From contig NZ_JABFAP010000001.1 in the NCBI RefSeq assembly GCF_017168255.1, positions 385,931 through 449,930 on the forward strand: a stretch of DNA of 64,000 nt, written 5' to 3'. A program made the translations under genes and the position numbers. Under the pieces are notes generated by a model. It was not told the origin of the DNA, ran no database searches, and worked only from the letters and a program-made list of their open reading frames with translations. Source of the stretch: Agrococcus sp. KRD186. Its GTDB lineage: Bacteria > Actinomycetota > Actinomycetes > Actinomycetales > Microbacteriaceae. Shown piece by piece: positions 30,266 to 53,399 of this stretch. Position 1 is the first letter of the stretch. Each line of letters opens with the position of its first letter.

Positions 30266-35298
<5,033 letters not shown>

Positions 35299-35336
35299 TA
35301 ACATATATATGAGCTTGCTGCTCGCGTCCACTTTGT

Positions 35337-35361
35337 GGTTCTCGATGTACGGTCGAGAACC
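35337..35361 (+). other. processing stem-loop between 23S and 5S
   Basis: GGTTCTCGA and TCGAGAACC form a perfect 9-bp stem with a 7-base loop, probably an rRNA processing element. Confidence 0.5.
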
Positions 35362-35412
35362 GCAGCCCTTCGCTTCATTGCGGAGAGCTGTGCAGATCGA
35401 AACATCAATAGT

Positions 35413-35531
35413 GTTTCGGCGGCCATAGCGAGAGGGAAACGCCCGGTCACATTCCGAACCCGGAAGCTAAGGCTCTCAGCGCCGATGGTACTGCAGGGGG
35501 GACCCTGTGGGAGAGTAGGACACCGCCGGAC
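35413..35531 (+). rRNA. rrf: 5S ribosomal RNA
   Basis: A ~119-base 5S rRNA from GTTTCGGCGGCCATAGCG to CACCGCCGGAC; its ends pair. The loop region CCGAACCCGGAAGCTAAG is conserved. Confidence 0.95.
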
Positions 35532-48709: not shown

Positions 48710-49735
48710 ATGAGCATCGCCGCTTTCGACCGATACCCGCTGACCTTCGGGCCGAGCCCCGTGCATCCGCTCGACAACCTGACCAAGCATCTCGGCGGCG
48801 CGGCGGTCTGGGCCAAGCGGGAGGACGTGAGCTCGGGCCTCGCGTTCGGCGGCAACAAGACCCGCAAGCTCGAGTACATCGTGCCCGACGTGCTCGCCTC
48901 CGGTGCCGACACGCTCGTGTCGATCGGCGGCTACCAGTCGAACCACACCCGGCAGGTGGCCGCGGTGGCCGCGAAGCTGGGCCTCAAGTGCCGGCTGGTG
49001 CAGGAGCGCTGGGTCGACTGGGACGACCCGGTGAACGACAAGGTCGGCAACCTGCTGCTCTCGCGCATCATGGGCGCCGACTCACGGCTCGACGCGGCAG
49101 GCTTCGACATCGGCATCCGCTCCTCGTGGGAGGAGGCGCTCGCGGAGGTCGAGGCGGCAGGCGGCACGCCCTACGGCATCCCCGACGGCGCCAGCGAGCA
49201 CCCGTTCGGCGGGCTCGGCTTCGCCAACTGGGCCTACGAGGTGGCCGAGCAGGAGCGCGAGCTGGGCGTCTTCTTCGACACGATCGTGGTCTGCACGGTG
49301 ACCGGCTCGACCCACGCGGGCATGATCGCCGGGTTCGCCGCCCTGGAGGACGCAGGCGGGCGACCGCGCCGCGTGCTCGGCATCGACGCATCCGCCACCA
49401 TCGACAAGACGCGCGACCAGGTGGCCCGCATCGCCCGGCACACCGCGCAGCTCATCGGCCTCGAGCGCGATTTGCGCGACGACGAGATCACCGTGCTCGA
49501 GGGCTGGGCCGGCGACCTCTACGGCATCCCGGTGGCGTCGACGGTGGATGCGATCCTCACGACCGGCAGGACCGAGGGCATGATCATCGACCCGGTCTAC
49601 GAGGGCAAGTCGATGGCGGGGCTCATCGATCTGGTGCGCTCGGGCGCGATCGCGAAGGGCTCGACGGTGCTCTACGCCCACCTCGGCGGCCAGCCTGCGC
49701 TCAACGCCTACTCGGGCATCTTCCCCTGGAGCTGA
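48710..49735 (+). CDS. acdS: 1-aminocyclopropane-1-carboxylate deaminase
   Basis: A PLP fold-type II enzyme that opens ACC, the ethylene precursor, to 2-oxobutyrate and ammonia. The PLP lysine is K50 in [11 protein letters not shown]297-E298 in [11 protein letters not shown] match the Tyr-Glu pair that distinguishes ACC deaminases from D-cysteine desulfhydrases. [15 protein letters not shown] is conserved. 341 aa. Such genes let plant-associated bacteria lower host ethylene. A broken relative lies 2.4 kb downstream. Confidence 0.9.
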
Positions 49736-49818
49736 GCGGGGTCGGTCACAGGATGAGAAGAGCCTGGTTGGCCGACCGAGGGCGGAGGCAGCACTGGTCG
49801 GTCGTAGACGGCTTCGTA

Positions 49819-50748
49819 TCAGTACCGAGCCCGTTGCAACCAAGCGGTGATGGACGCTGCCATGGCGACCGCACAGAGCAGACCGCCGATGGCTAAGCCC
49901 AGCATCGGACTCGGCCCGAGGATCGCCATTGGGCGGAACGAACCGGTGAACTCCAAGATGTCCCGACCAACAACCAAGATGAGGTTCCGCGGGTCCAATG
50001 GGCCGAGGATCGGTATCAGGAAGTAGGCGAGCACCAAGCCGGACATGGTGAATGCACGCTCGCGGGCCCAAGACGCGATCGCGAAGGCCGCAAGCCCGAA
50101 CACCCCGCCGACGCCGAGCGAGTAGGCGATGGACAACAAGATCCCGCCGTCGATGCGCGGCGTTGCGGCTGTGACGCCTGAGTCGCCAGCCACGCCTGGG
50201 ACGAGCAACGTCGCGATTGCGCCTGCTGCGGAGGAAGCCGCGAGGGTTGCCAGGCAGGTCAGGAAGACGAGCAGCAGCAGCGTCATCGTCTTTGCAGCAA
50301 CGAAGGCGACGAGGCCCGACTGGGGCCAGCGAACGCGAATGGACCGACTCCGCGCGTCGTGCGTTGCAAGGCCCACGCCCAGCAGCATGCCGAGGACGGG
50401 GAAGAAGAGGACGGTGGACAGCGCAATCGCTGAGCGCGCAGAGCCAAGAGCCGACATGTTGCCAAGTGCGACCGACGCGCGGTCGTAGTCGTATCGCAGC
50501 GGGTTGTTGGTGATCTCAGCCCCGCCGGGCCCGGTCTCGATCGACACTGGCGCTTGCAAAGCGGCCTCAACGGACTCTCCGGCCTGCTCATACTCCTCAA
50601 CCGTGGCGAGGAACTGGCCGACCTCAGCGGACGCGAAACTCGAGTTGGAGACAGTGTTCCAGCCTGTTGCGGCTGCCGCTGCGAGCAACAGCACGAGAAT
50701 GAGTTTTGAGTTCCACGCCCACCTCAACTCACGGCGGATCTCACTCAT
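49819..50748 (-). CDS. ABC transporter permease (ABC-2-like)
   Basis: A 309-aa membrane protein. One helix near residues 15-30, a ~70-residue external loop, then about five more helices ending in an Ala/Gly-rich pair. Topology fits an ABC-2-type exporter subunit; no close family is recognised. The ATG at 50748 overlaps the ATPase stop by eight bases. Last gene of the minus-strand cassette. The region looks less GC-rich than the core genes around it. Confidence 0.8.
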   Translation of the reverse strand: MSEIRRELRWAWNSKLILVLLLAAAAATGWNTVSNSSFASAEVGQFLATVEEYEQAGESVEAALQAPVSIETGPGGAEITNNPLRYDYDRASVALGNMSALGSARSAIALSTVLFFPVLGMLLGVGLATHDARSRSIRVRWPQSGLVAFVAAKTMTLLLLVFLTCLATLAASSAAGAIATLLVPGVAGDSGVTAATPRIDGGILLSIAYSLGVGGVFGLAAFAIASWARERAFTMSGLVLAYFLIPILGPLDPRNLILVVGRDILEFTGSFRPMAILGPSPMLGLAIGGLLCAVAMAASITAWLQRARY

Positions 50749-51442
50749 GGAACGAGTCGTACGTCTCTTCAAGGCTCGCCGTCCTCTCGTAGTGCGCAGT
50801 CCCGTCGTGCAGCACACCGTCCTTCAGGATGTAGAGGCGGTCGGCAAACCCTTCGAACACGGCAAGATCATGGCCGGATGCGATGACCGTGCGGCCGGAG
50901 TCGACGACAGACTCGAGCGCACCCCGCACGCGCGCTCGAGTCGACCGGTCAAGACCGTTGCTGAATTCATCCAGCAGCAGGACCTTGGCGCTGCTCGCCA
51001 CAGCGATGGCGATGAGCACCAGCCGCGTTTGGCCAGCGGAGAGCCTGCCAGCGCGCGCAACCAAGAGGTCTTTCGGGAGCAGGCTCCGCACTGTTGGCGA
51101 GGATGCCGCTGTCCCATCGTTCAATTGGTACTCGATGTTCTTGGCCACCGTCCAAGTCGGATACATCGTCGATTCGTCGAAGACGCCGAAGATGTCGCCG
51201 CCAGCGAGCGACCGCCCGCTCATTGCGCCCCCGAACCGCACGGAGCCACTGAAGGACTCCAGTCCGAGCATGCATTTGAACAGCGTCGTCTTGCCCGAGC
51301 CATTCTCGCCGAGAATCGCGACGACATGCCCCGACGGGAAGCTAGCGGAGGCCCCGTTGAGAACCGACCGCTGGTAAGCCTTGCTCAACTCCTCGATGAT
51401 GAGGTCAGGGGACTCATCCGCTGCGGTCAGTTGATCCACCAC
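50741..51442 (-). CDS. ABC transporter ATP-binding protein
   Basis: A 233-aa ATPase: Walker A GENGSGKTT, signature LSAGQTRLV (LSAGQ instead of LSGGQ), Walker B VLLLDEFSNGLD and a switch His in ASGHDLAVF. It pairs with the permease to form an exporter or membrane-extraction machine. The start is GTG at 51442, 16 bases inside the end of the secreted-protein gene, so the three genes are translationally coupled. Confidence 0.88.
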   Translation of the reverse strand: MVDQLTAADESPDLIIEELSKAYQRSVLNGASASFPSGHVVAILGENGSGKTTLFKCMLGLESFSGSVRFGGAMSGRSLAGGDIFGVFDESTMYPTWTVAKNIEYQLNDGTAASSPTVRSLLPKDLLVARAGRLSAGQTRLVLIAIAVASSAKVLLLDEFSNGLDRSTRARVRGALESVVDSGRTVIASGHDLAVFEGFADRLYILKDGVLHDGTAHYERTASLEETYDSFHE

Positions 51443-52023
51443 CCGTTGTACGCCCCGCTCTTCTGGACGTCAATGCGAGCGGTTGACGTCCAGTTGTACA
51501 CGTTCGCGTTACCCCACGGCGTGGGAACGCCTGCACCGACCATGTAGCGACCGCGCCAGCTGTGCTTGGACGACGTCGTAGAGATGCGACTCGTGCCCAA
51601 CGCTGTGACGTTGTTCGGGAAGATCGCGCCGGTGCTCTGGTAGCCGGAGCTGGAGAGGATGGTGTACCCGGTGTAGCGCCAGTAGACGCGCTCGTCCGCC
51701 CAGGCCAACCACGATCCGCGATAGAGGCTGACTTCCATGCTGTAGGTCGCTTGCGTCGACGCCATGCCGTTTGTCGTCGCCATGCCAGTCGGCGCTACTC
51801 GCGCCACGCCGGACGTTGAGTGCGCGTTCGCAGTCCAAGCGTCGATGACCTGCAACTGTTCTGCCGTCAGCCCCTCGACTTCGGCGGGTTCGTCGGGGCT
51901 GCTCGCGAAGGCAGCCTCCGGGATGAGGATCGAACTCGTCAGTACCATGAAGCCGGAGATCAGGCCGATCAGAGCCAACGGTCGACGCCTCGCGTGCGTC
52001 GCCGGTTCTTCATAGTTGTGCAT
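51427..52023 (-). CDS. secreted Trp-rich protein, unknown family
   Basis: A 198-aa protein with a basic n-region (THARRRP), a hydrophobic core (LALIGLISGFMVLTSS) and a likely signal-peptidase site AFA-SS near residue 41. The mature part has a short acidic helical segment, then a beta-rich domain of about 110 residues with at least eight Trp and many Tyr/Ser/Thr and no Cys. It ends NGWWIN. I do not recognise a family; it loosely recalls small secreted beta-sandwich bacteriocins, but this is unproven. Start ATG with GGAGAG. First gene of the ABC cassette. Confidence 0.8.
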   Translation of the reverse strand: MHNYEEPATHARRRPLALIGLISGFMVLTSSILIPEAAFASSPDEPAEVEGLTAEQLQVIDAWTANAHSTSGVARVAPTGMATTNGMASTQATYSMEVSLYRGSWLAWADERVYWRYTGYTILSSSGYQSTGAIFPNNVTALGTSRISTTSSKHSWRGRYMVGAGVPTPWGNANVYNWTSTARIDVQKSGAYNGWWIN

Positions 52024-52071
52024 AATCTCTCCATTGAGGTTGCAGAATCACGGAACTCGCGATTTGCGCGA

Positions 52072-52100
52072 ACTGTAGCATTCGGGCGTTGTCTCGGCAA
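52072..52100 (-). promoter_or_regulatory. candidate promoter of the secreted-protein/ABC cassette
   Basis: On the minus strand TTGCCG (52100-52095) and TACAGT (52077-52072) are 17 bases apart, about 50 bases before the ATG of the secreted protein. Confidence 0.5.
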
Positions 52101-52140
52101 CAGACCGGTGAGATGATCCACGCCGAAGGGCCTTTTCGGC

Positions 52141-52281
52141 CTCGCTGCTCTAACGCATCACGGGCGCCGACGGCCGCCTCGAGGCGGCGGAGTTCGACAT
52201 CGGCATGGGCTCCTCCTGGGAGGAAGCGTTCGGTCGAGGCTGCCGACGGCATCCGTCTATGGCATCGTCGCCTGGAGCTGA
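52141..52281 (+). pseudogene. decayed acdS-like fragment
   Basis: 52141-52237 aligns base for base with 49051-49147 of acdS; the translation RITGADGRLEAAEFDIGMGS matches [24 protein letters not shown] (52151) replaces a Ser codon. After about 52245 the sequence jumps to the acdS end: TATGGCATC...GCCTGGAGCTGA parallels GGCATCTTCCCCTGGAGCTGA. About 560 internal bases are missing. It is diverged, not a recent copy. The gap 52024-52520 otherwise holds only short GC hairpins near 52308-52420. Confidence 0.85.
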
Positions 52282-52520
52282 GGGTCGCGTCACTGGGAGG
52301 GGAGAGTCGGCCGGAAGGCCGAATCCAGCCTCTGCTCGGAAGGGCCGCCGAGATCTCCTCTGCTCGTGACGCGCGGCGGCTCAGGATGCGCGGCGTCGGG
52401 GCGGCCCTTCGGGCCTCCTCGACGAGCGCATCAGGCAGGGGCGAGCCTCAACCAGAGGTTGAGATACACGCCGCGCCGGGCTACCGGGGGAAGTCGGCGG
52501 GGGTTCCTAGACTCGGAACC

Positions 52521-53399
52521 GTGAGCAACAGCACCGAGACCCTGGCCGGCATGGAGGCGCCCACGCTCGGGCCGACCGGGCGTGCGGTGCAGGAGTTCCC
52601 CGTGCCTGCGCCGCTGAAGTCGCACGGCCCCGCGCGCATCATCACGATGTGCAACCAGAAGGGCGGCGTCGGCAAGACGACCACCTCGATCAACCTGGGC
52701 GCCGCCGTCGCCGAGTACGGCCGCCGCGTGCTGGCCGTCGACTTCGACCCGCAGGGCGCGCTGAGCGCGGGCCTGGGCGTCGACAACCACGACGCGACCA
52801 CGATCTACGACCTGCTGCTCAACCCCAAGATCGACCCCCGCGAGGCGATCCAATCGACCTCGGTCGAGGGGCTCGACGTGATCCCCGCCAACATCGACCT
52901 GTCGGCGGCCGAGGTGCACCTCGTCAACGAGGTCGCCCGCGAGCAGATCCTCGCCCGGGTTCTGCGCCGCGTCGCCGACGACTACGACCTCATCCTGATC
53001 GACTGCCAGCCCTCGCTCGGCCTGCTCACCGTGAACGCGCTCACCGCCGCGCACGGCGTGCTCATCCCGCTCGAGAGCGAGTACTTCGCCCTCCGCGGCG
53101 TCGCGCTCCTGAAGGAGACGATCGAGAAGGTGCAGGACCGCCTGAACCCGGCGCTGCAGCTTGACGGCATCCTGGTCACGATGTTCGACTCCCGCACCCT
53201 GCACGCACGCGAGGTCATGGAGCGTGTGGTCGAGACCTTCGGCGACACCGTGCTCGACACCGTCATCCGCCGCACCGTGAAGTTCCCCGACGCATCCGTC
53301 GCCGGGGTGCCCGTGACGCAGTTCGCGCCCGAGCACGCCGCCGCAGAGGTGCACCGCCAGCTCGCGCGCGAGCTGATCGCCCGCGGCGCCATCGCCTGA
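52521..53399 (+). CDS. ParA-family ATPase next to scpAB
   Basis: A 292-aa ParA/MinD-like ATPase with the deviant Walker A KGGVGKTTTS, DFDPQGALSAG and LIDCQPSLGLLT. No parB is adjacent, so it is the orphan ParA that precedes scpA in actinobacteria (Rv1708 slot), not the main partition ATPase. It probably helps chromosome organisation together with condensin. The start is GTG at 52521. Confidence 0.9.
   Translation: MSNSTETLAGMEAPTLGPTGRAVQEFPVPAPLKSHGPARIITMCNQKGGVGKTTTSINLGAAVAEYGRRVLAVDFDPQGALSAGLGVDNHDATTIYDLLLNPKIDPREAIQSTSVEGLDVIPANIDLSAAEVHLVNEVAREQILARVLRRVADDYDLILIDCQPSLGLLTVNALTAAHGVLIPLESEYFALRGVALLKETIEKVQDRLNPALQLDGILVTMFDSRTLHAREVMERVVETFGDTVLDTVIRRTVKFPDASVAGVPVTQFAPEHAAAEVHRQLARELIARGAIA

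Follow-up and report, generated by a model that had tools for sequence, protein, structure and literature searches.

The window, a stretch of 64,000 nucleotides from Agrococcus sp. KRD186, carries between acdS and parA a cassette of three overlapping genes, which encode a Sec-type secreted protein, an ABC transporter ATPase and an ABC-2 type permease. Our comparisons support the cassette being a lineage-specific, horizontally acquired insertion. Judged from sequence comparisons, it is one member of a recurrent, mobile and unnamed operon family, scattered over two phyla. We propose that the cassette probably encodes a bacteriocin exported by the Sec pathway, together with an ABC transporter for self-immunity.

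Organization of the locus

The left border of the insertion is an intact acdS gene (48710–49735, plus strand), encoding 1-aminocyclopropane-1-carboxylate (ACC) deaminase. Its product scores 518.7 bits against NCBIfam TIGR01274 (cut-off, 392), which makes it a true ACC deaminase by the family model, and it shares 91–94% amino acid identity with the acdS products of six congeners. The three cassette genes lie on the minus strand and are transcribed in the order secreted protein (51427–52023, 198 aa, the presumed bacteriocin), ATPase (50741–51442, 233 aa; PF00005, E = 3.7e-20) and permease (49819–50748, 309 aa), with overlaps of 16 and 8 bp. Upstream of the cassette, the promoter search gave no match. 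An acdS remnant on the plus strand (52138–52281) follows, and a short segment matching nothing in the congeners separates it from the conserved leader of parA. The native right border lies in this leader, at a perfect inverted repeat, CTCAACC-AGA-GGTTGAG (52447–52463, plus strand), which is a single site in the window and looks from its sequence like a candidate operator of a regulator. The conserved parA gene (52521–53399, plus strand; PF13614) stands to the right of the slot. The intact acdS, the three overlapping minus-strand genes and the acdS-like fragment are thus present as an earlier note on this DNA had described them.

Foreign origin of the cassette

The entire interval from acdS to the parA leader (49736–52440) is missing in the congeners. 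Within the genus, the secreted-protein gene occurs only in the window genome (n = 24) and in none of the 23 congeners. Every one of the 24 genomes carries parA; acdS is found in eight, seven of which have it in the slot before parA. In four congeners (G004, G010, G019 and G001), the slot is uninterrupted and consists of acdS, 84–108 bp with the conserved leader, and parA. Each of the six congeners that have acdS in the slot (L036–L041) also has the leader, with the inverted repeat intact in five of them and altered in G011.

The composition of the cassette also sets it apart, and the earlier statement that it is less GC-rich than its neighbours holds. Its GC content is 63.8%. Stretches of equal size outside the rRNA operon average 72.3% (SD 2.0), which places the cassette about 4 SD below the mean, and the minimum among such stretches away from the cassette is 66.2%. 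The GC3 values of the cassette genes are 0.78–0.82, versus 0.95–0.97 in xerD, VOC, acdS, parA and scpA. Elsewhere in the window, the long region of low GC (29.5–35.5 kb) has another source, a complete rRNA operon (16S, 23S and 5S) at 30266–35531. The unique presence of the cassette, the uninterrupted site in the congeners and the foreign composition together indicate that a foreign cassette entered a variable slot, in agreement with the earlier note, and exclude the pattern that the note had set against its own reading, a cassette of normal composition common to all relatives. Contamination by a stray contig is improbable, as the cassette is embedded in a contig of 3.05 Mb.

The same slot holds other genes elsewhere in the genus. 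In G007, about 9.5 kb including ABC ATPase genes lies between acdS and parA (L038, 4863–14352), which marks the slot as an exchange site. In G011, about 660 bp is found there (L037, 1901–2563), plus a second inverted repeat, and this insert seems, from its sequence, to hold a small acetyltransferase-like gene in the minus orientation. With the acdS–parA interval serving as a gene-exchange slot in the genus, its gene content should not be taken as purely vertical.

The acdS remnant

The fragment at the right edge aligns significantly with acdS, as the earlier note had supposed, both in a six-frame search of the entire genome (E = 1.3e-6) and by pairwise blastn (77% over 128 bp, E = 7e-24). It is 144 bp long and comprises codons ~115–157 and the last codons of acdS, with an in-frame TAA at 52151–52153. 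Several details of the original description shift: the homology starts at about 52138 rather than 52141, the internal loss is real but amounts to about 535 bp (acdS nucleotides ~471 to ~1006) instead of about 560, and the reading phase of acdS is kept, the TAA aside, for about 28 codons, after which small indels follow. The TAA itself was correctly noted. The remnant has been dead for some time.

Where did this remnant come from? In a search of 400 family genomes, it matched congeneric acdS genes best, at 78% and 77%, with the next match at 73%, and it is equidistant from every congeneric acdS (68–70 of 85 sites). The alignments support its origin as an acdS copy of the genus' own lineage and disfavour a donor from another sampled genus. 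We also asked whether the intact acdS could be a hybrid or a late import; sliding nucleotide identity along the gene gave no hybrid signal and does not support this.

The earlier note had suggested either a second acdS-like copy or recombination. The genus-lineage acdS at the right edge bears out the acdS part of this proposal, although its two routes are not separated. We give an even chance to a tandem acdS duplicate having come first, with the cassette then entering between the copies. This order is favoured by the remnant belonging to the acdS of the genus lineage, and by a weak likeness just past the two stop codons, which is suggestive only, since its score was reached by 15 of 500 shuffles. 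The alternative is the integration of a circular element carrying the 3′ part of acdS, which left a displaced 3′ end. Both routes produce the same layout of intact acdS, cassette and 5′-truncated acdS, and neither is marked by a direct repeat or an integrase that would define an integration mechanism, or by a hybrid signal in the intact acdS. Moreover, the equal distance to all congeneric acdS genes means that the remnant cannot be dated or placed.

The secreted protein

The secreted protein is “hypothetical” in the automatic annotation, belongs to no Pfam or NCBIfam family and is unnamed in every library used. Its architecture consists of a signal peptide, a linker in several members, and a domain of about 105 residues. 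In the window protein, the signal peptide covers about residues 1–40 (51904–52023, minus strand), with the cleavage site, inferred by eye, at PEAAFA|SS. The following residues, ~41–91 (51751–51903, minus strand), form a linker or pro-region with LTAEQLQVIDAW, which resembles the pro-regions of Paenibacillus, Defluviitaleaceae and other relatives. Several members from the Actinomycetota, Paenibacillus and Defluviitaleaceae have a linker segment like L-T-x-x-Q-x-x-A/V-I-x-x-W, which is absent in Lactococcus. Neither a lipobox nor a membrane anchor was present in the secreted-protein sequences seen.

The mature domain (about 107 aa; 51427–51750, minus strand) carries the motif G-x-PTPWG-N. In the alignment, the residues G12, W17, S34, Q38, G41, F44, P45, G52, G67, G72, G74 and T77-P78-W79-G80 are invariant or nearly so. 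The AlphaFold model of the domain is confident (pLDDT 90.2, pTM 0.78) and predicts a seven-stranded, all-beta fold. The domain is strongly basic in 11 of 13 members (pI 9.5–10.7) and contains 3–9 Trp and 0–1 Cys residues; the less cationic members are L081 (pI 6.8) and L080 (pI 8.3). Its mean pairwise identity is 39%, versus 33% and 25% for the other two cassette proteins, and it is more conserved than its own ATPase in 53 of 66 pairs. Such conservation above the ATPase is unusual and suggests that its surface or its ligand is under tight constraint.

We found no relatives in viral contigs, phage records, PHROGs or the viral fold library, and thus a phage origin of the cassette is unsupported. 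SdpA was rejected as a relative, because its match (E = 0.13–0.25) is at chance level.

The ABC transporter

The ATPase has all of its motifs: the Walker A, the LSAGQ signature, the Walker B and the H-loop. PADLOC matches of the ATPase were rejected as generic P-loop hits. In the permease, the 13-row alignment reveals a conserved external loop, N-x-x-R-Y-D-Y-D, following the first helix. Its AlphaFold model (pLDDT 84) has an ABC-2/type V fold, the nearest solved folds in Foldseek are NosFY, ABCG and PmtCD (best E = 7e-3, probability 1.00), and several of its relatives match the Pfam family ABC2_membrane. An ATPase with the full set of motifs and a permease with the ABC-2 fold together identify the pair as an ABC-2 (type V) exporter. 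Among 140 Microbacteriaceae genomes, the permease family occurs in only two, both of which carry the secreted gene. The permease therefore appears to be dedicated to the secreted protein.

An operon family in two phyla

The same three-gene operon is present in 18 further loci. The ATPase gene adjoins the secreted gene in the same orientation in all 18, and the permease is missing only from L075, at a contig end. The Actinomycetota members are from the Propionibacteriaceae, Microbacterium, Glaciihabitans and related MAGs, Paenarthrobacter, and two more Micrococcales genera, and those of the Bacillota are from Lactococcus chromosomes (L. garvieae and L. nasutitermitis), mobilizable Lactococcus plasmids, Paenibacillus and a Defluviitaleaceae MAG. 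The flanking genes are unrelated between loci, and in the seven loci examined no further gene accompanies the operon consistently. The unit is therefore the set of three genes. In the concatenated tree, the window operon groups with those of the Propionibacteriaceae and Microbacterium, and not with the Glaciihabitans operon of its own family. The earlier term “secreted-protein/ABC cassette” described the gene types correctly, while the bacteriocin-like, mobile operon family went unrecognized.

These members were collected by several searches. Strong profile matches (E ≤ 1e-15) outside the window were obtained in 5 of 400 Microbacteriaceae genomes, and all five have the full operon. A scan of 84,980 species with one narrow, degenerate peptide motif gave 13 loci, in all of which the secreted gene is followed by the ATPase gene; five of the 13 are the same Microbacteriaceae loci. 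An order-level search of 396 genomes added three further loci. A tblastn search of plasmids identified two Lactococcus plasmids encoding the C-terminal domain (40% identity over 101 aa), in both of which the ATPase and the permease follow, with 26% and 21% identity to those of the window. The genome-contig search with the single window protein returned nothing, while the motif-based alignment succeeded. Similarly, the plasmid search with the window permease was empty, while that with the Lactococcus permease yielded a plasmid lacking the secreted gene. Weak family matches (L064–L067, E = 2.5e-4 to 0.007) were left out of the member count, and two weak matches that were examined (L073 and L074) have no ATPase or permease partner in the 9.5-kb stretch. 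We found no literature on the plasmids or on such an operon family.

Retention of the transporter after loss of the secreted gene

The transporter genes persist in three loci whose secreted gene is disrupted or gone. In the plasmid pUCCL630E, the transporter block is 99.4% identical to that of pLLUC7005E over 1670 bp; it starts right after the stop codon of the secreted gene and abuts a transposase fragment, and the secreted gene is undetectable there. In pLLF72C, a deletion of about 260 bp took the upstream region and the signal peptide of the secreted gene. In Paenarthrobacter sp. AR 02 (L087, 5740–6296), the secreted gene is frameshifted and the ATPase and permease genes are open; this frameshift could be either decay or a sequencing error. 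The reverse case, a secreted gene without the ATPase, was not found among the counted member loci. The losses are therefore one-way, as a toxin-immunity pair predicts, although the cases are few. The plasmids that keep the transporter but lack the secreted gene are built-in controls.

On pUCCL630E (L122, 196–4939), the transporter genes adjoin a gene for a divergent PBP2X-like penicillin-binding protein and one for a secreted-looking protein of 94 aa. The PBP2X-like protein scores 807.9 bits against the PBP2X model (cut-off, 1050). This neighbour is a possible hint at a target in the cell wall.

Proposed function

How would the three gene products act together? We infer the following sequence of Sec export, antibacterial action at the envelope, and immunity. 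The product of the first gene would leave the cell by the general Sec pathway, guided by its predicted signal peptide, and release the cationic, Trp-rich and nearly Cys-free beta-domain of about 105 residues. The released domain would then attack a conserved target in the envelope of Gram-positive bacteria. Meanwhile, the products of the second and third genes, as a dedicated ABC-2 exporter, would keep the domain off the producer's own membrane or wall, and thereby provide self-immunity.

The cassette has the features of this functional class: a signal peptide, a small mature protein, and dedicated putative immunity genes that outlast the presumed bacteriocin gene. The strict linkage, the sporadic spread, the mobilizable plasmids, the one-way losses, the cationic domain, the exporter-like permease and the logic shared with lactococcin 972 all argue for a bacteriocin. 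On the other side, none of the libraries used calls any member a bacteriocin, the domain is not strongly cationic in two members, and the losses number only three, one of them a frameshift that could be a sequencing error. Bacteriocins often diverge fast. The high conservation of the domain fits an invariant target, but it also fits a housekeeping secreted role.

The main alternative, which we consider unlikely, casts the secreted protein as an accessory to the exporter, for instance an extracellular partner that receives or delivers an envelope component or a drug, and the operon as a system for efflux or envelope maintenance rather than attack. That the three genes are strictly linked and overlap, and that the secreted domain is more conserved than the ATPase, is consistent with this alternative, and NosFY-type exporters do use an extracytoplasmic partner, NosD. 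However, loci that have lost or disrupted the secreted gene still retain the ABC pair, which implies that the pair is useful without the secreted protein. In addition, the sequences seen lack a lipobox or membrane anchor, and the distribution is sporadic and partly plasmid-borne.

Quite improbable, in our view, is a reading in which the secreted domain is distantly related to Zea (Lmo2686), a secreted Listeria protein, and assembles into a ring-shaped oligomer for binding RNA or some other polymer outside the cell, with the exporter being separate or supporting. The top Foldseek match of the confident model is indeed Zea (PDB 4k15; E = 1.6e-3, probability 1.00, TM 0.47), and both are small, basic, Sec-secreted proteins (PMC6907008). 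Zea is reported to bind RNA and is not known to have a dedicated ABC operon. The resemblance in fold is weak, with an rmsd of 5.8 Å and 15% identity, and neither a TM above 0.5 nor a profile match, by which a Zea fold would be assigned, was obtained. Profile searches of all PDB chains to E = 10 gave chance-level matches only, 4k15 not among them, and no sequence relation to the cassette domain is detectable. The 4k15 match may serve as a lead only. The last alternative, a signal or pheromone with the ABC transporter as its exporter or sensor, has in its favour a small secreted protein linked to a transporter, but we regard it as very improbable, given the protein's own Sec signal peptide, the folded domain of about 105 residues, large for a pheromone, and the seven loci where no further gene is conserved beside the operon.

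We return to the bacteriocin as the preferred reading. The secreted protein defines an operon family of two phyla, for which a fold is predicted and the invariant residues are clear, and if the antibacterial reading is true, the family would offer a ready set of unmodified, almost Cys-free antibacterial proteins with their immunity pumps. A bolder version, which is doubtful, is a new class of Gram-positive antibacterials. Its members would be beta-proteins that are exported by Sec, form rings or barrels and carry an invariant TPWG motif, and they would have spread between Actinomycetota and Bacillota in a three-gene attack-and-immunity cassette. They would be unrelated to known bacteriocins and share their fold only with Zea.

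Comparison with known systems

The lantibiotic protection ABC transporters (TIGR03740 and the LanFEG type) resemble the cassette in their self-protection logic and in the ATPase match (E = 6e-22). However, the score of 78 bits is far under the cut-off of 310, and the ATPase matches several import ATPases at least as well; the cassette has no modification enzyme, and its secreted protein is almost Cys-free. PmtCD exports phenol-soluble modulins and protects against them. The permease shares the fold of PmtCD and the other type V exporters (ABCG and NosFY) by Foldseek, but with identities of about 10–17% and TM scores of about 0.4–0.5, and no function was transferred.

The nearest functional analogue appears to be the lactococcin 972 cluster, where a Sec-exported bacteriocin is encoded with the putative ABC immunity genes orf2 and orf3 (PMC4055356; PMC12634713). 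Like the cassette, it is compact, joining a gene for a small Sec-secreted protein with a pair of putative ABC immunity genes, and it is found on a Lactococcus plasmid. The cassette is not a homologue, as judged by profile comparison: the motifs of the secreted proteins differ (GGGxWxYGV...SxYxH in lactococcin 972, GxPTPWGN in the cassette), and hhalign with a profile of ten Microbacteriaceae TIGR01653 members gave a probability of 0.1%. TIGR01653 had no match in 13 cassette-family members and none in the window genome. In the wider family, TIGR01653 genes (L088–L099) are present in 14 of 150 sampled Microbacteriaceae genomes.
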